Below are positions 1 to 56,862 of a DNA stretch of 64,000 nt, piece after piece. A program made the translations under genes and the position numbers. Position 1 is the first letter of the stretch, and each line of letters begins with the position of its first letter. The DNA is taken from contig WBOU01000009.1 in assembly GCA_009268125.1 (NCBI GenBank), positions 62,001-126,000 on the forward strand. The letters are read 5' to 3'. Source of the stretch: Chloroflexia bacterium SDU3-3. GTDB taxonomy: Bacteria > Chloroflexota > Chloroflexia > Chloroflexales > Roseiflexaceae. Under the pieces are notes generated by a model that saw only the letters and a list, made by a program, of their open reading frames with translations, did no database searches and was not told the DNA's origin.

Positions 1-272
1 GCGGGGCCGACCGATCCTACGGCATTCATGTGGCCGAGCTGGCGGGCATCCCCCGCGCGGTCACCAAGCGCGCCAAGGAGCTGCTGGCCGACCTTGAGCA
101 GTCGACGGCGCAGCCCGCCCCCGCGCCCCAGGCTGAGGGTGCCGCGCCCGAGGCCGCGCCCGAGGGGCTGCACCCGGCGGTGGAGTTCATTCGGCGGCTC
201 CAGGTGAACGAGCTGACGCCGATCGAGGCGCTCACCAAGCTCTACGAGCTGCAGCAGCTGGCGAGGCAGTAG
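1..272 (+). CDS. mutS: DNA mismatch repair protein MutS, C-terminal end (5' truncated by window)
   Basis: The reading frame is open from base 3 to the TAG at 270-272 and gives about 89 residues. It starts with [18 protein letters not shown], the conserved helical segment that follows the MutS ATPase domain. An Ala/Pro-rich linker comes next, then a short C-terminal helical segment ([18 protein letters not shown]) of the kind used for MutS tetramer contacts. MutS recognises base mismatches and insertion/deletion loops and starts repair. The lever, clamp and Walker regions lie outside the window. Confidence 0.9.
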
Positions 273-800
273 TTTTTCTTCACCACGAAGACGCGAAGGC
301 GCGAAGGTTTTTTACCACCAAGGCTCCAAGGCTCCAAGTTTGCAGACTTGGGGCCTTGCGCCTTCTTCGAGCATTCACCTGCCTTCGTCGAGCGTTCACC
401 CGCCTTCATCGAGCATTCACCTGCCTCATTCGAGCGCTCACCTGCCTCATTCGAGCGCTCACCTGCCTCATTCGAGCGTTTCCCAGCCTCATTCAAGCCG
501 CCGCAATGAATCGCGCCGTATGCATCGCGTGCATCGTGTGCATCGTGCGATGGTTCGATGTGGCGATGCACGCGGCGCGGGCGGACACGAGATCCGCCCC
601 TACATCGATGTGTGACACTGTGCGCATCGGGCGGGGCGGCAATAAGGGCAAGGCGGGCATTCTCGCACTCCTCAAGCATCTTTTCCCAGCACATCCAAAA
701 TCTTGGCGCCTTGGTGGCAAAAAATCCACGCCGAGCACATCCAAAATCTCCGAATCTTGGAGTCTTAGAGTCTTGGTGGTAAAAAATCCTCGTGGTGAAT
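273..800. repeat. Interspersed repeat island 1
   Basis: There is no convincing gene between mutS and the promoter at 808. The left side carries CACCACGAAGACGCGAAGG-type (281-308) and TTTACCACCAAGGCTCCAAG-type (311-338) motifs. The right side carries reverse complements of the same motifs (about 703-728 and 752-798), so the island is bounded by inverted copies. Inside are a 21-bp tandem array (362-498) and a module around 575-612 (GCGGACACGAGATCCGCCCC) that recurs at 43345-43380. The ORFs predicted here are low-complexity repeat translations. Confidence 0.75.
362..498. repeat. 21-bp tandem repeat (minisatellite), about 6.5 units
   Basis: Six consecutive 21-bp units start at 362, 383, 404, 425, 446 and 467, followed by a partial unit. 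The unit core is TCGAGCRYTCACCYGCCT. Two units of the same sequence recur at 38293-38331, far away and in another island. There are no unique spacers, so this is not a CRISPR array. Confidence 0.85.
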
Positions 801-807
801 CTGGGTG

Positions 808-837
808 TTGCCTTGGGGCGAGGCGGCGTGCTATACT
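808..837 (+). promoter_or_regulatory. Sigma-70-type promoter for the small-ORF locus
   Basis: TTGCCT (808-813) and TATACT (832-837) are separated by 18 bp. Initiation would be near 844, only about 15 nt before the ATG at 860, so the ribosome-binding site would lie at the very 5' end of the transcript. Confidence 0.65.
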
Positions 838-859
838 GCGGGCAAGAAGAGGAACCCCT

Positions 860-961
860 ATGGATATGACAGCGGCACAGCCCAGCGTCAACGCTATCGC
901 CCTTCACGACTACGGAGGCCTGGGCTGCTGCGTGCCATGGCTGTGGGGGCGCAGGGCCTAG
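860..961 (+). CDS. 33-residue small protein or leader peptide, unknown function
   Basis: ATG at 860 is preceded by an AGAGGA ribosome-binding site (849-854). The 33-codon frame ends at TAG 959-961. The C-terminal half is distinctive: HDYGGLGCCVPWLWGRRA, with a Cys pair, two Trp and a terminal RR. It has its own promoter (808-837), and an intrinsic terminator follows 31 nt after the stop. The stop codon lies in the 5' arm of a 6-bp hairpin (956-961 with 971-976). CCTCTTC at 981-987 is perfectly complementary to the ribosome-binding region GAAGAGG (846-852). It may be a leader peptide controlling read-through into the next small gene, or a small peptide gene in its own right. The family is not recognised. 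Confidence 0.5.
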   Translation: MDMTAAQPSVNAIALHDYGGLGCCVPWLWGRRA

Positions 962-992
962 TGTACCTTGCTAGGCAGAACCTCTTCCACAG

Positions 993-1022
993 CCTTCCCG
1001 AGCGGGAAGGTCTTTTTATTTT
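993..1022 (+). terminator. Intrinsic terminator after the 33-aa ORF
   Basis: Perfect 7-bp stem CCTTCCC (993-999) / GGGAAGG (1004-1010) with a GAGC loop, followed by TCTTTTTATTTT. Confidence 0.9.
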
Positions 1023-1147
1023 CCTGCTCTGATCGCGCGATGTCCGTGGCGGCGAGGCGTACCCGCGCCCGCTCGACGGCGAGCCAGCGGCCCCCATGCG
1101 GCTGCGCGCCCCACAGATGCGACAGAGCCAAGCAGAGAGGACTCTGT

Positions 1148-1303
1148 ATGAGTACCATCAAACCGTTCGCGATCAAGACCCACGCCCCGCGCATGCCGTC
1201 GATCCTCAAGCTGTTCCAGCGGATCGCCAAGGCCCACCCGATGATCATCGCCGTCTCGCCCCCCGACCAGCACACGCGCCCCGAGCGCACCACCCGCTAC
1301 TAG
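1148..1303 (+). CDS. 51-residue small basic protein, unknown function
   Basis: ATG at 1148 follows a good ribosome-binding site (AGAGAGGA, 1135-1142). The frame encodes 51 residues ending at TAG 1301-1303. The sequence is basic (SILKLFQRIAKAHPMIIAV core, Arg/Thr-rich tail) and has no Cys or recognisable domain. It lies between the terminator at 993-1022 and a very strong terminator at 1429-1467, which suggests a discrete transcription unit or a gene reached by attenuated read-through from the promoter at 808. No family is recognised. Confidence 0.45.
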   Translation: MSTIKPFAIKTHAPRMPSILKLFQRIAKAHPMIIAVSPPDQHTRPERTTRY

Positions 1304-1428
1304 CCCTACCGCGCCGTAGGCGCTGCCACCACCCCTCCGCCCCGCTATGGCCAGGGCAGGGGGCGAACACAGCCATACGCCGCGTAGGTGTGAGGAACAC
1401 CGAAACGAATGACCGCACGACCAAGCAA

Positions 1429-1467
1429 ACAGGGCATCAGGCGCAACCTGATGCCCTGTCTTTTTTT
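1429..1467 (+). terminator. Strong intrinsic terminator
   Basis: Perfect 13-bp stem ACAGGGCATCAGG (1429-1441) / CCTGATGCCCTGT (1447-1459), 5-nt loop, then C and seven T. It ends the small-gene locus. Confidence 0.95.
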
Positions 1468-1488
1468 GTGCCAAGCCCCGCTACGGCG

Positions 1489-2130
1489 CTAGATCGCCTT
1501 CTGGTTCTCGCGCGCGGTCTCTAGGCGGCCCAGGTGGCTGGCCTCGCTCAGCGAGACCAGGTAGGGCATGCCCTCGCCGTACTCGATCACGCTGATGCTG
1601 GCGTTGGTGACCCAGATGCGGTTGATGCGGTCCATGTCCATGCCCAGCGCATCGGCCACCAGGATCTTGACCACCACATCGTGGGTGGAGAGCAGCACGT
1701 TGCGGTCGGCGAACTCGCTGTACAGCCGCTCTTTAAAATCGAGCACGCGCTTGAGGATGTTGCTGAAGCTCTCGCCGCCGGGCATCTGCGAGCGGGTGGG
1801 GTGCATGCGCCACTCGACCAGGCCCGCGCCGTAGCGCGCGACCACCTCATCCAGCATCAGGCCCTGCCAGTCGCCGTGGTCGATCTCCAGCAGGGAAGGC
1901 TCGACGGTGAAGGGCACCGCCGGGTGGTGGGCGGCGATGGCCTCCGCCGTGCGGCGGGCGCGCTGTAGCGGGCTGGCGAAGATCGCATCGATCGGCTCGC
2001 CCTTGAGGCGCTCAGCCAGGGCGGCGGCCTGGCGCACGCCAAGCTCGGACAGCGGCGCGTCGGCCTGCCCCTGGTAGCGCCCGATTCGGTTCCACTCGCT
2101 CTCGCCGTGGCGAATAATGATGAGACGCAT
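1489..2130 (-). CDS. Histidine phosphatase family protein (phosphoglycerate mutase-like)
   Basis: 213 residues. The N-terminus MRLIIIRHGESEWN contains the RHG catalytic motif of the histidine phosphatase superfamily, in which the His is phosphorylated. ASPLQRARRTAEAI supplies the second Arg motif, EIDHGDW the acid/base region, and LSTHDVVVKIL the second catalytic His. The family includes cofactor-dependent phosphoglycerate mutases, alpha-ribazole phosphatases and broad-range phosphatases, and the substrate cannot be told from sequence. The start at 2130 is chosen because GAGGG lies 7 nt upstream and conservation begins there. A TATAAT-like box (2239-2234) precedes it. Confidence 0.85.
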   Translation of the reverse strand: MRLIIIRHGESEWNRIGRYQGQADAPLSELGVRQAAALAERLKGEPIDAIFASPLQRARRTAEAIAAHHPAVPFTVEPSLLEIDHGDWQGLMLDEVVARYGAGLVEWRMHPTRSQMPGGESFSNILKRVLDFKERLYSEFADRNVLLSTHDVVVKILVADALGMDMDRINRIWVTNASISVIEYGEGMPYLVSLSEASHLGRLETARENQKAI

Positions 2131-2357
2131 AGTTACCCTCTGCTCAAATGACTGCCTGGCAGATGCCAAGGGACCACGCTGAACCAGAGACACTGCCGGC
2201 TACCGCAAAACCGCAACCTGTTTACCGCGCGCCATTATAGCGGAAACTCGCCGCGCCGATGTGGTACCATGCGGCCACGAAGAAGCGCGATACAGGCCGC
2301 CCCACGCGCCAGAGAGGCTTGCGCAGGCTCTGGCCGCGCGCGGCAAGCGAGGAAAAT

Positions 2358-3095
2358 ATGGCCGAGACCCAAACCTGGCAGATCCTGCCCACCGCCGACG
2401 ACGTGGCCGCCGAGGCCGCGCGGCGCTTCGTGGCGCTGGCCCAGCAGGCCGTGGCCCAGCGCGGCGTGTTCACCGTGGCGCTGGCGGGCGGCACCACGCC
2501 CAAGCGCATGTACGAGCTGCTGGCCCAGGCCCCGCTGGTCGACCAGGTGCCCTGGCCGCAGGTGAAGTTCTTCTGGAGCGACGAGCGTTTCGTGCCGCTG
2601 GACCACCCCGACAGCAACTACCTTGCCGCCCGCCTGGCGCTGCTCGACCACATCGCCATCCCAGCCAACACGGTGTTCCCCGCGCCGGTGGCCAGCGACA
2701 CCCCCGAGCATGTCGCCGCATCCTACGCCGCCACCATCGCCCAGGAGCTTGGCGAGGGCGGGGTGTTCGACCTGGTGCTGCTAGGCATCGGGCCGGATGG
2801 CCACACCGCCTCGCTCTTCCCCGGCCGCCCCGAGGTGGACGCGCCCAGCGCGCCCGATGTGATCGCCATCCGCGAGTCGCCCAAGCCGCCGCCCAGCCGC
2901 ATCACCTTCGCACTGCCGCTGATCAACGCCGCCGCCCACGTGATCGTGCTGGCCCCTGGGGCCGAGAAGGCCGACGCCGTGCGGCGCTGCCTGCGCCCGG
3001 CTGCGGGCGAGCTGCCGCCGCCCGCCGGGCGGGTGCGCCCCGGCGCGGGCCGGCTCACCTGGCTGATCGACGAAGCCTCGGCCAGCCAGCTCTAG
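2358..3095 (+). CDS. pgl: 6-phosphogluconolactonase
   Basis: 245 residues with NagB/6PGL family motifs: ALAGGTTPKRMYELLA near residue 40, FFWSDERFVPLDHPDSNY (substrate-binding signature), DLVLLGIGPDGHTASLFPG (catalytic His in GxDGHTASLFP) and VLAPGAEKADAVRR near the end. It hydrolyses 6-phosphogluconolactone to 6-phosphogluconate in the oxidative pentose phosphate pathway, in the cytosol. The start at 2358 has AGGA 5 nt upstream; upstream codons in frame lack family similarity. The next gene follows after 17 nt, so the two may be co-transcribed. Confidence 0.93.
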   Translation: MAETQTWQILPTADDVAAEAARRFVALAQQAVAQRGVFTVALAGGTTPKRMYELLAQAPLVDQVPWPQVKFFWSDERFVPLDHPDSNYLAARLALLDHIAIPANTVFPAPVASDTPEHVAASYAATIAQELGEGGVFDLVLLGIGPDGHTASLFPGRPEVDAPSAPDVIAIRESPKPPPSRITFALPLINAAAHVIVLAPGAEKADAVRRCLRPAAGELPPPAGRVRPGAGRLTWLIDEASASQL

Positions 3096-3112
3096 CGGGA
3101 GAGGCAGCACCG

Positions 3113-4009
3113 ATGATAGCCGAGCAATCTACCTTCGCCCAGATCCGCGCCCTGCTCGACCGCGCCGAGCGCGACACCGTGGCGGTGCGTCAAGATGCGG
3201 CCCGCGCCGCCGAGCTGCTGCGCGGCATCGAGCAGGCCGAGGCGCTGCTGGATGTGCAGCGCGGCCAGGGCATCGACAGCCGCGCCGAGGAGGGCCGCGC
3301 CAGCTCGCTGCGCGGCTTCGCCCTGCGCGAGGCCCGCATGATCGTGCGGCAGGCCCAGGCCGCTGGCCAGGCCCAGCAGCTGGCGGACAGCCCGCTGTGG
3401 GCCGAGCTGCTGGCCAGCGAGGCCGCGCGCACGGCCCGCCAGCGCCGCAGCCTGCTGCTGTGGCTGGGCGGCATCGCCGCGCTGGCCGTGCTGCTGGTGG
3501 TGGTGGTGCCCCGCGTCTTCCCATCCGCGCCGGTGGCCAGCACGCTAGAGGTGAGCGCGCATGTGGAGCAGGGCGACCTGCAGGGCGCGCTGGCCCTGGC
3601 GCTGGCCGAGCAGGCCAGGGTGCCCGAGGATGAGCAGATCGGCATGTGGGTGGCGGCGCTCCAGCAGCAGCTGGGCCAGGCCAGCGCGGCCAGGGCCTCG
3701 TGGGATGCGGCCAGGGCGCGCTACCCCAGCGAGGCCAGCTACCTGAACGATCAGGTGGGCGTGCTGGTGGCCGTGGGCGACACCGCCCAGGCCGAGCAGG
3801 CGGCCACCCGCCTGCAGCAGCTGCCCGGTGGCGCGGCCTTCGGCACCTACCAGCTGGGGGCCGTGCGCGAGGCCCAGCTGCGCTACAGCGAGGCCATCCA
3901 GCTCTACGACCAGGCCAGCCAGCTGGCCGACAAGGAGGATCGCCCGCAGCTGGTGGTGGTGGCCAGGGCGCGCATGGCCGCGCTCATGCAGCTGCCGCAG
4001 CAGCCCTAG
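3113..4009 (+). CDS. Single-pass membrane protein with TPR-like C-terminal domain
   Basis: 298 residues. Residues 1-115 are charged and helical and likely cytoplasmic. A transmembrane segment (SLLLWLGGIAALAVLLVVVV) lies near residues 120-140. The rest is Ala/Gln-rich helical repeats of TPR character (QGDLQGALALALAEQARVPEDEQ, YSEAIQLYDQASQLADKED). The ATG at 3113 has GGGAGAGG 8 nt upstream and follows pgl by 17 nt. A scaffold or protein-interaction role is typical for such proteins; no specific function can be assigned. It ends at a bidirectional terminator. Confidence 0.75.
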   Translation: MIAEQSTFAQIRALLDRAERDTVAVRQDAARAAELLRGIEQAEALLDVQRGQGIDSRAEEGRASSLRGFALREARMIVRQAQAAGQAQQLADSPLWAELLASEAARTARQRRSLLLWLGGIAALAVLLVVVVPRVFPSAPVASTLEVSAHVEQGDLQGALALALAEQARVPEDEQIGMWVAALQQQLGQASAARASWDAARARYPSEASYLNDQVGVLVAVGDTAQAEQAATRLQQLPGGAAFGTYQLGAVREAQLRYSEAIQLYDQASQLADKEDRPQLVVVARARMAALMQLPQQP

Positions 4010-4026
4010 CGGGCGCGGCGGGTCGC

Positions 4027-4069
4027 AAAAAACGGCGCGGGCGGCATCACAACCGCCCGCGCCGTTTTG
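4027..4069. terminator. Bidirectional intrinsic terminator between convergent genes
   Basis: A long perfect GC hairpin (AACGGCGCGGGCGG / CCGCCCGCGCCGTT) is flanked by A-run and T-run, so it can stop transcription from the TPR gene (+) and the HerA gene (-). Confidence 0.9.
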
Positions 4070-4085
4070 CCATGATCTCGCCCGG

Positions 4086-5705
4086 CTAGAACAGCTCGTC
4101 CATGTCGTTCTGGGCGCGGCGGGCGCGCACCTCCAGCGGCTCGGCCTCGCGCGCGCCCATGGCCCTGTAGAAGTGTTCGTCGTAGGCGCGGGTGCGCACC
4201 ACCACCGGCATAGGCACGGCGTGGCCCAGCACCATGGCCTGCTGGCGCGAGTCCAGCGTGGCCAGCACCGACTTCAGCGCGCTGCCGCCGCTGACGCCGG
4301 TGAACACCGCGTCGATGTCCTTGTCGTCGTTGAGCAGCGCGGTGATGCGCGTGCCCAGCTGGCTCATCACCTCGTTGCTGATCGACGAGGGCCGCTGGTC
4401 CACGATCAGCAGCGTCACGCTGTACTTGCGCAGCTCGCGGGCGATGGTGCCAAAGATCGTCGCGCCCGAGGCCGAGGCGCTGAGGAACTTGTGGGCCTCC
4501 TCGATCGTGATCATCAGCGGGTGGGGCTTGTCGGCCTTGTTCTTCGAGCGCAGGTAGCTGTCCGTCATCTCGACCCAGCGGCGGTGGATGCGGCGGGTGA
4601 TGATGTTGGCGGTGAGCATGTACGAGAGCGTGTCGGTGTGGCGGCCAAACTCCAGCACCACGTGCTTACCGTGGCTCAGCGCGTCGATCATGCGGTCGAT
4701 CGTGGCGCTGGGCGCGGTCTCGCGCACGAACTCCTTGCGGGCCACCTGCTCCAGCTTGCGCTTCAGCGCGCTGATCGCCCCGGCGTGGCCGCCCGCCTCC
4801 TCGGCGAACTCCTTCAGCTCATCGGCGCTCATGGCCAGCAGCGCCTTCAGCCACTTGTCGCGGTAGCGGTCCACCAGCAGGTAGGCCGACTCGGTGGCGG
4901 TGGGGTTGAGGTTCAGCTCGTCGCGCAGCAGCTCGATGTCGCCCACCTCGATCTGGTCGAGGCCGATCACCACCTCCTCATCCGGGGCCACGCCACGGTT
5001 GCGCGAGGATGCGGGGTCGAGCGAGTAGACCAGCACCTGCGAGCCGCCGAACAGCTGGCGCAGGCCCTTGACGAAGGTGCCGCTCTCGCTGGTGGCGTCG
5101 TGGCCGTACTCGCTGTGCATGTCGAAGATCAGGTTGGATGCCGACTTGGCCTTGATCGTGCCGCAGAGGATCAGGCGGGTCAGGAAGCTCTTGCCGGTGC
5201 CGCTCTTGCCGAACACGCCGTTGGAGCGCTCGACCAGCCGCTCCAGGTCGAGGCAGATCGGCACGTCCATGTCCAGCGGACGCCCGATCTCGAAGTGGGT
5301 GCGGTCTTCGGTGCCGAACACGCGGGTGAAGTCGCTCTCGTTGGCGTCGAACACGGCGGCGAAGTGGCGCGGCACCGTCTTCACCGGGCGCGGCCCCTCG
5401 TTCAGGTCGTGCGGCACCATCAGGTTGGGCTTGAGGTTGATCGAGCCGTAGGTGGATGTGCCCGCCAGCACCTCGTAGAAGAACGGGTCGCTGCCGGGCG
5501 GGTCGGCCAGGATCTTCTGGTTGGTGGCCTCCAGCGACACGTCCGTCACCATCGAGAAAAACTGGTGCTTCTCGCCCTCCACCACCACAAATTTGCCCAC
5601 CCGCATATCTTCGACACTGGCGTCCGCGTCGAGCCGGGCGCTCAGCCCCTCGATCAGCGAGCCGCTGGTGATGACGCCCAGCTTCGCGCGCGTGAACATG
5701 GACAT
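4086..5705 (-). CDS. HerA-type DUF87 ATPase / DNA translocase
   Basis: 539 residues. The N-terminal ~110 residues fit the beta-barrel (HAS-barrel) domain that precedes HerA-like ATPases. Walker A is GVFGKSGTGKSFL near residue 190, followed by LIFDMHSEYGH; Walker B is LMITIEEAHKF. LLIVDQRPSSISNEVMSQLG is the sensor-like segment seen in HerA/FtsK relatives. These hexameric ATPases move on DNA; archaeal HerA works with NurA nuclease in end resection. No NurA-like gene is visible nearby, so the partner is unknown. The start at 5705 has AGGAG about 9 nt upstream and a consensus promoter at 5749-5776. Confidence 0.85.
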   Translation of the reverse strand: MSMFTRAKLGVITSGSLIEGLSARLDADASVEDMRVGKFVVVEGEKHQFFSMVTDVSLEATNQKILADPPGSDPFFYEVLAGTSTYGSINLKPNLMVPHDLNEGPRPVKTVPRHFAAVFDANESDFTRVFGTEDRTHFEIGRPLDMDVPICLDLERLVERSNGVFGKSGTGKSFLTRLILCGTIKAKSASNLIFDMHSEYGHDATSESGTFVKGLRQLFGGSQVLVYSLDPASSRNRGVAPDEEVVIGLDQIEVGDIELLRDELNLNPTATESAYLLVDRYRDKWLKALLAMSADELKEFAEEAGGHAGAISALKRKLEQVARKEFVRETAPSATIDRMIDALSHGKHVVLEFGRHTDTLSYMLTANIITRRIHRRWVEMTDSYLRSKNKADKPHPLMITIEEAHKFLSASASGATIFGTIARELRKYSVTLLIVDQRPSSISNEVMSQLGTRITALLNDDKDIDAVFTGVSGGSALKSVLATLDSRQQAMVLGHAVPMPVVVRTRAYDEHFYRAMGAREAEPLEVRARRAQNDMDELF

Positions 5706-29900: not shown

Positions 29901-30820
29901 CTAGATCAGGTCGATCTCGCACGAGCCGGAGGAGCAGGCCAGCTCCATCGCCGCCGTGGTCAGATCCTCTTCCTCGTAGCGCCAGACCTTCGAGAAGTCG
30001 ACCTCGGGGAAGGCGGCGGCTAGGCGCTCGTACTCTTCCTTCTCGATCTCCACATACGGCATCTGGGCGTAGTTGGCATCGAACGACGGCAGGAACGACA
30101 GGCCGCCGATCTGCTCGCGGTGCTCGTACACCCACTTCATCAGGTCGATCACCTCATCCGGCTGGTACGTGATCGTGCAGCTCGGGTTGTGGTCGGTCCA
30201 CTGCAGCTTGTTCTGCAGCCAGAACTCGCACTGCTCGATGGCCGAGCGACCGTTGCGCGTGATCGCGGTCTCGGGTGCCTTAACCGGGAAATGGATAACC
30301 CAGGTGTTGGCGTTCTCGGGCGTCTGGCCGTTCTCGGGGTCCATCGGCACGCCAGCGTCGCGCAGCACCTTGAACAGCGGCGAGTGGACGGCCACGCGCA
30401 CGTTGCGCACGTAGTAGGGTGCCCAGCGGGCGTGCAGGCCCGACGAGCAGTTCAGCAGCTGCGACGAGTTGCCCGAGGGCTTCACGCAGGTGATCGAGGC
30501 CGACTGGTTGATGCCCAGCGCCTGCGCGGTCTCCAGGTTCACCTGGGTTGCGATCTCGCGCAGCTGCGCCTTGATGCTGCCATCCTGCGCGGCGGGGCTG
30601 TCCATCTGGCCGGTGATGTCCACGCCCAGCAGCCGCTCCTCCTCGCAGTTCTGCTGCCACATGGGGCGCAGGCCGGGGAAGTGCGTGGCCATCGACTGGA
30701 TGGAGCCGATGATCGTCGCGACCTCCACCTTGTCGCGCAGGCTCTCGAAGTCGTCGTCGGCGCGGGCCACCGCCGCCGTCAGGTTGCAGAACTGCCAGGG
30801 GCGCAGGTTGATCTCACCAC
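29901..30820 (-). CDS. nrdJ: Class II ribonucleotide reductase, exon 2 (C-terminal part)
   Basis: After removal of the intron at 30821-31057, exon 2 completes the Cys codon and reads (C)GEINLRPWQFCNLTAAVARADD. The conserved FCNL Cys follows 11 residues after the thiyl Cys. TCVKPSGNSSQLLNCSSG and the C-terminal ACSSGSCEIDLI (redox-active Cys pair) are typical of adenosylcobalamin-dependent reductases. Exon 2 gives 306 residues. Read as an independent ORF it would start at an internal GTG (30770) and lack the active-site motif. The spliced product is 767 residues. The enzyme makes deoxyribonucleotides from ribonucleotides. Confidence 0.93.
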
Positions 30821-31057
30821 CACATCTGTTAGCCTACCGCTGCTGCGGTAGCCTGCGGTCATTTCTGCCGCAGTCTGCACCTTCTTCCCGTGCGTTATAG
30901 GTGCAGGTCAGAGCGCATCACCATCTCGATTGAGATGCCCTTTGTCGCTCGTTCGCGCCTTCCCTTTCGGGCTGTGCGACGGAGTTATCCACGCCTGGAC
31001 TTCCTCCGTTATTCAGGGTTTTCATAGGGGGTCGCCCGCCCTATGCCGCTAGGTTTA
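30821..31057 (-). ncRNA. Group I self-splicing intron (237 nt, ORF-less) in nrdJ
   Basis: The 5' exon ends CCCG-U and the intron ends in G (complement of 30821), the group I rule. Joining restores NPCGEINL exactly. P1: exon CCCGU pairs with intron GCGGG (31039-31035), leaving the U.G wobble at the splice site. P2: CATAGGG/CCCTATG (31045-31023). P3: CCCU (31018-31015) with AGGG (30941-30938). P4-P5: ACGGAG (31009-31004) / CTCCGT (30984-30979) enclosing TCCA-GGCG-TGGA, with J5/4 = UAA. P6 includes CCC-GAAA-GGG. P7: GAGCG (30950-30946) / CGCTC (30915-30911). P8: CATCTC/GAGATG (30937-30922). P9: CTGCACC/GGTGCAG. Two further perfect hairpins (P9.1, P9.2) precede the 3' end. No protein is encoded, so mobility would need help in trans. 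Confidence 0.92.
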
Positions 31058-56786: not shown

Positions 56787-56862
56787 GGAGCCGTAGCTCA
56801 ATGGACAGAGCATCCGCCTTCTAAGCGGGTGGTTGTGGGTTCGAATCCCGCCGGCTCCGCCA
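56787..56862 (+). tRNA. tRNA-Arg (anticodon UCU)
   Basis: 76 nt. Acceptor GGAGCCG / CGGCTCC, D arm GCTCAATGGACAGAGC, anticodon arm with loop CTTCTAA (anticodon 56820-56822), T loop GGTTCGAATCC, discriminator G and an encoded CCA end. It reads AGA/AGG Arg codons, which are rare in this GC-rich genome. It is convergent with apt, whose stop lies 8 nt beyond the CCA. Confidence 0.97.

Follow-up and report, generated by a model that had tools for sequence, protein, structure and literature searches.

The nrdJ gene of Chloroflexia bacterium SDU3-3, which encodes a class II ribonucleotide reductase (RNR), is very probably interrupted by a small group I intron that contains no ORF, lies directly after the first base of the radical-cysteine codon and would be spliced at T|GT. 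The gene was found in a 64 000 nt stretch of contig WBOU01000009.1, referred to here as the window, and nine further introns at the identical position were recovered from other genomes and a phage.

Under the explanation that we favour, an adenosylcobalamin-dependent class II RNR of the monomeric type would be interrupted by an autocatalytic RNA. Ribosomes on unspliced mRNA would reach a conserved in-frame stop within the first few codons of the intron, after which the RNA would fold, exogenous guanosine would attack after U(-1), and the exons would be ligated at T|GT, yielding an intact enzyme. The intron, without an endonuclease of its own, would most likely have spread by homing with help in trans, and it may persist because only exact removal would restore an essential enzyme.

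The interrupted nrdJ gene

The gene lies on the minus strand, and all exon and intron coordinates refer to that strand. Exon 1 (32441-31058), defined by an ORF and its translation, comprises codons 1-461 and the first base of the Cys462 codon, and encodes an ATP-cone (PF03477, 9e-22) followed by the RNR alpha/insertion region (TIGR02505, 1.7e-39). The intron (31057-30821, 237 nt, ORF-less) was assigned from its sequence, nine homologues at the identical nucleotide, covariation and the quality of its fold. Exon 2 (30820-29901), defined by its translation and a second TIGR02505 match (1.6e-32), extends from the last two bases of the Cys462 codon to the stop. TIGR02505 thus matches each exon separately, in both cases below its full-length cut-off.

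Exon 1 ends with ...GGC ACC AAC CCG T and exon 2 begins with GT GGT GAG, while the intron has the termini TAAACC and ...GATGTG. Only one cut, T|GT, is possible, and the flanking bases permit no alternative that gives TGT GGT GAG. When joined, the exons form a frame of 768 codons including the stop (767 aa) that has no internal stops, with the cysteine as residue 462. ORF calling splits the gene into two ORFs with stops between them. The original prediction had described nrdJ in this way, and had stated that removing 30821-31057 joins the exons exactly within the Cys462 codon; both its coordinates and its join are exact.

Unspliced mRNA is predicted to yield an N-terminal chain ending in ...NPLNLAA, and an in-frame TAG is present at 31043-31041, inside P2. 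An early in-frame stop occurs within about ten codons of the intron start in all ten introns, and has also been described for other bacterial group I introns (PMC3984707). The predicted chain would be compatible with a two-chain enzyme, in which the two ORFs are translated separately and the products assemble, and the split NrdA of phage Aeh1 provides an RNR precedent (PMC3653736). However, neither chain would carry the catalytic cysteine because its codon is split, and the first listed start of the second ORF, GTG at 30770, is well past the beginning of exon 2. We consider a two-chain enzyme to be highly improbable.

Intron structure and covariation

The window insert folds much better than shuffled sequences (z = -5.6; 0 of 200 shuffles). 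For covariation, the named group I structure was applied to an alignment of ten introns, namely that of the window and its nine relatives. In this structure, which includes P1 to P9.1, the P3/P7 pseudoknot and P10, 98.8 % of cells are paired across the ten sequences, and 27 of the 60 pairs are altered on both sides. The covariation score of the given structure was 0.416; slid versions reached 0.049-0.073 and shuffles averaged 0.154. The group I core order P1-P2-P3-P4-P5-P6-P7-P3'-P8-P7'-P9, with the P3/P7 pseudoknot, is found in all ten, and P3, P4, P5, P6, P7, P8, P9 and P9.1 are each backed by compensatory change. The aligned sequences thus support both helices of the class-defining pseudoknot, P3 and P7.

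In P1 (31061-31046, minus strand, as are all elements below), exon CCGU and the first intron U pair with AGCGG, and the U.G pair marks the 5' splice site; the five pairs of P1 are invariant across the ten sequences. The U(-1).G pair and the terminal G, both of them forecast by the original prediction, are present in 10 of 10. The P2 hairpin (31045-31023) is capped by a GNRA tetraloop (GCGA), whose G-N-G-A is invariant, and seven of its pairs are changed on both sides. The 5' strand of P3 (CCCU, 31018-31015) has its partner AGGG at 30941-30938, forming the pseudoknot with P7; every cell is paired and three of the four pairs show compensatory change. In P4 (ACGGAG/CUCCGU) and P5 (GUCCA/UGGAU), which together occupy 31009-30979, three and two pairs, respectively, are changed on both sides. 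P6 (CGC/GCG) and P6a (CCC GAAA GGG) occupy 30978-30956, with two of the three P6 pairs changed on both sides and P6a invariant wherever it is present.

P7 (GAGCG/CGCUC, 30950-30911) encloses the P3 3' strand (30941-30938) and P8 (30937-30922). All of its cells are paired, and one of the five pairs is compensatory (C-G to U-A in three sequences); P8 includes a U-A to A-U change in four sequences. At the guanosine site, where a G-C pair flanked by a bulged base is usual, the P7 GAG...CUC is invariant and can be drawn either without the bulge or as G.U, a bulged A, then G-C; the two drawings are not separable because these bases do not vary. P9 (30906-30875) is paired in every cell and has one pair changed on both sides. 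P9.1 (30873-30853) combines an invariant loop, CAGAAAUG, with a stem in which six of six pairs change on both sides. P9.2 (30852-30832), found by folding in all of the introns, is variable in length and was left out of the covariation count. P10 is formed by the exon 2 GGT (the Gly463 codon, 30818-30816) and ACC at intron positions 4-6 (31054-31052). In this NCC/GGN pairing, intron position 4 covaries with the third, silent position of the glycine codon; the variable position is paired in 9 of 10 sequences, with OHK40 the mismatch, and four pair types (A-T, G-C, G-T and T-A) are found.

The original prediction had drawn P1 through P9.2, including the U.G wobble and P7 GAGCG/CGCUC, and all of these are present. 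Its J5/4 needs amendment: the junction exists, but it is AA or CA across the relatives and not UAA, because the U belongs to P5. It had also described the intron as close to the minimal size; the length of 237 nt is correct, but this is the longest of the ten, with the others at 210-230 nt.

A group I fold does not of itself imply autonomous splicing. If splicing needed help from a host protein, or took place only in certain states of growth, the intron could act as a switch on dNTP supply, and the compactness of the intron, with few peripheral elements, is consistent with this. T4 introns reportedly splice in a manner that depends on translation and growth state (Sandegren and Sjoberg 2007). 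However, the conserved P2 GNRA loop, P9.1 and P9.2 suggest a fold that would be self-sufficient, and we think non-autonomous splicing unlikely.

Detection with covariance models

The original prediction had looked to the Rfam group I model for confirmation, and here it failed. RF00028 gave zero matches to the window, the element or the genome, even with relaxed filters and E<=10, and did not detect the close homologues of the window intron. At gathering threshold, a tRNA gene (56787-56859, plus strand) is all that Rfam matches in the window. RF00028 does call two other introns in RNR genes, one in Oscillochloris RM1_1_4 (locus L032) and the other in a phage reductase, and for this reason the negative result is best read as a gap in the RF00028 model, not as absence of an intron. 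We note that a match to RF00028 is a database criterion and not a defining property of the group I class.

A covariance model, R1, was built from five homologues. R1 matches the upstream intron of L032, which scores 55.2 bits with RF00028, from end to end (E 3.2e-5). Since an intron called by RF00028 is matched in this way, the model comparison indicates that the window family is kin to accepted group I introns and is beyond the reach of RF00028.

The host enzyme and dependence on the interrupted gene

The host protein is a class II RNR, matching the RTPR structure 1L1L with an E value of 1.2e-40. Cys462 aligns with Cys408 of 1L1L (position hand-counted on the printed alignment), which is the thiyl-radical residue of this solved adenosylcobalamin-dependent reductase. 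Searches of the genome for further reductases, using PF02867, PF13597/NRDD and a second NrdJ of the RTPR type, found none, and genome completeness is rated at 100 %. As no other reductase was found, splicing of the split nrdJ is very probably required for life.

The nrdJ exons are under purifying selection. Between the window exons and an intron-minus family member dN/dS is 0.16, between intron-plus and intron-minus Herpetosiphon exons it is 0.016, and for intron-plus pairs it is 0.024-0.026. Values involving L064 were excluded, as its ORF call looked unreliable. The spliced reading frame is also open in the five other RTPR-type genes examined.

These findings bear on whether the insert is instead a degenerate intron, or some other RNA element, in a pseudogene, with another reductase doing the work. 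The two ORFs with stops between them and the lack of an Rfam match would both fit a pseudogene. However, the genome rated as complete contains no other reductase, the exons are intact and under selection, and the insert has been kept with compensatory changes in ten sequences. The pseudogene reading is strongly disfavoured, with very little chance of being correct, and an intact second nrdJ accompanied by decay of this copy, which the original prediction had named as the case against itself, is excluded by the single RNR locus and its intact exons.

Distribution of the intron family

Searched with R1, the intron is present in 9 of 82 Chloroflexales genomes, including that of the window, and no additional carriers were found in a sample of 400 Chloroflexota. 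No further copies were detected in the source genome. When 84 980 species were scanned with a pattern, supported matches were confined to Chloroflexales, with the carriers being Herpetosiphon llansteffanensis, 'Ca. Oscillochloris fontis', Oscillochloris RM1_1_4, Chloroflexales MAG.66, Chloroflexi OHK40 and 'Ca. Viridilinea halotolerans'. Pattern matches in Planctomycetes, Proteobacteria and other groups look like chance, as only the Chloroflexales matches (of 17) have covariance support. Among viruses, neither the GenBank phages, queried with the intron DNA, nor the first two viral pattern scans yielded a copy. A looser gapped pattern in viral sequences identified a single IMG/VR contig, L040, that carries the intron in an RTPR-like phage reductase gene, and R1 recognises this copy too. 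All ten introns (210-237 nt) follow the T of the identical cysteine codon (T|GT).

The introns occur in two types of reductase. The first, RTPR-like, includes those of the window, Herpetosiphon, Viridilinea and phage L040, and the second (...NPCGEQPLL.YD.CNLGS.NLG) includes those of O. fontis, OHK40, RM1_1_4 and genome G074. Between the two types the introns are 67-87 % identical and the host proteins are only distantly related, and these identities indicate that the intron has moved between reductase gene families at least once. The tree of the ten introns (AU p 0.46) does not fix the number or direction of the crossings between reductase types.

Intron-minus alleles and mobility

At least 29 intron-minus alleles were found, bearing out the expectation in the original prediction of a sister allele with matching flanks. 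One of them is in Herpetosiphon, beside intron-plus congeners. It is a near base-for-base match around the join, and the only difference adjacent to the site is the silent CCA/CCG base that P1 needs. Every intron-plus allele has CCG TGT, whereas CCG is found in only 6 of 29 intron-minus alleles. For independent sequences, which these are not, the CCG excess alone would have a probability of about 1e-5 (hand calculation). The Herpetosiphon introns differ at 4-5 of 228 bases and their flanking exons at several per 100; exon divergence was examined for a drop next to the Herpetosiphon intron that would signal co-conversion, and no clear one was seen.

Patchy presence at one allelic site, together with intron-minus alleles, is a property of homing introns that this family shares. 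Encoding an endonuclease is a property that it does not, as the window copy is ORF-less, with relatives of 210-230 nt. Genes neighbouring the window nrdJ encode a beta-propeller-repeat protein and one with no match in Pfam, and no endonuclease adjoins this copy. In L040, a gene for a free-standing GIY-YIG endonuclease (L040 5515-6393) is located directly downstream of the intron-bearing phage nrdJ, in a nucleotide-metabolism cluster with thyX and dUTPase. Free-standing endonucleases are known to act in collaborative homing (cited in PMC2814812), and we therefore infer that a phage-borne GIY-YIG enzyme of this kind is the best candidate for the spread of the ORF-less intron. The phage route would rest on one contig, as one of the ten family members is viral.

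The mobility step could instead have involved reverse splicing into RNA encoding NPCGE, followed by recombination, in place of endonuclease-driven DNA homing. The target of the intron is short (CCGU | GUGG) and falls within the NPCG codons of both class II types, and the lack of an endonuclease beside the window copy also fits. Set against this are the GIY-YIG gene directly downstream of nrdJ in L040 and the GIY-YIG, LAGLIDADG or HNH domains carried by other elements at the cysteine site. We therefore view reverse splicing as somewhat unlikely.

Other insertions at the catalytic codon

In many sister Chloroflexales reductases, 354-467 residues are inserted in frame immediately ahead of the catalytic cysteine. 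Three of these inserts were tested and proved to be inteins, each combining Intein_splicing with a LAGLIDADG or HNH domain. Inteins were recorded at this position in sister Chloroflexales loci L092, L093, L094, L095, L097, L099, L100 and L101, and at least three kinds are represented (two LAGLIDADG and one HNH). In L096 (genome G064) and L098 (G078), nrdJ is also split at the cysteine site, and a simple intein search resolved neither insert. Phage reductases L072, L087, L090 and L091 have in-frame inserts ending in ...N^C at the catalytic cysteine. Like the intron, these NP^C inteins of sister Chloroflexales and phages occupy the catalytic cysteine, which would be the intein +1 residue; unlike it, they depend on protein splicing and not RNA, and their site is one base upstream.

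Two phage nrdJ genes contain intron-like inserts after the same base of the cysteine codon. In Roseobacter phage CRP-118 (OR420741.1) the insert (L104 2465-2636) is 172 nt long and ORF-less, and in L083 (5204-5977) it is 774 nt long, includes a GIY-YIG ORF and looks related to that of CRP-118. Like the window intron, both follow the T of the cysteine codon and end in G. However, both are outside model R1, with the CRP-118 insert giving no match to RF00028 or R1 and the L083 insert none to R1, and L083 has its own endonuclease. From motif alone these inserts would be group I-like. The CRP-118 record annotates two reductase genes, which is the misannotation that the original prediction had anticipated.

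Elements were also seen elsewhere in these genes. In phage loci L088 (3406-3645) and L089, nrdJ has an interruption at PYQFC|NL, some 11 codons farther along the gene, and the L088 element is an RF00028 group I intron (88.8 bits). One reductase gene in Oscillochloris RM1_1_4 (L032, about 1-4657, minus strand) apparently contains four splicing elements: an intein, an RF00028 intron at GGTR|RGANM, a window-family intron at NPC|GE and an intein at YDVC^NLG.

The sister-genome inteins and the L083 and CRP-118 inserts indicate that a single catalytic codon accommodates inteins, the window intron family and an intron of another kind. That conserved sites are generally favoured by both inteins and group I introns has been described before (PMC2814812). 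We tentatively suggest that the radical-cysteine codon may be a landing pad in class II reductases, where a single family of ORF-less introns moves between phage and host, and between two distantly related families of reductase, via a GIY-YIG enzyme acting in trans, in competition with at least three inteins and another intron family; this broader scheme is possible but the balance of probability does not favour it.

Relationship to known introns and implications

Group I introns in reductase genes are an already known kind. They have been described in Twort nrdE, SPbeta nrdE/nrdF, Bacillus nrdE and cyanobacterial nrdE (PMC3984707, PMC3653736), and more than 100 such introns are curated in the RNR entries of RNRdb (PMC2795772). 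Compared through reviews, the window family resembles these in having a ribozyme near a functionally important residue, an early in-frame stop and a patchy distribution. It differs in that the known introns sit in class I genes and this family in the class II NrdJ of Chloroflexota, and in being ORF-less, invisible to RF00028 and located such that it splits the radical-cysteine codon. The upstream intron of L032 (2482-2820) shares with the family the R1 match, the GGCAGAAAUGACC P9.1 motif and GUAACA near the 3' end, but differs in its site (GGTR|RGANM), larger size, canonical GAGACUA/AGUC P7 and detection by Rfam. A literature search found no paper describing the window family, though key subscription papers were outside its scope. 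What is new here is an Rfam-invisible intron family of class II reductases in Chloroflexales at the radical-cysteine codon, and the accumulation of both RNA introns and inteins at that codon.

Because annotation pipelines and Rfam miss this intron family, an essential gene appears broken. The site also offers a natural comparison, at one catalytic codon, of RNA-splicing elements, the protein-splicing elements of sister genomes and empty alleles. It would allow tests of why splicing elements gather at catalytic residues, of how ORF-less introns move, and of whether intron removal regulates dNTP supply.
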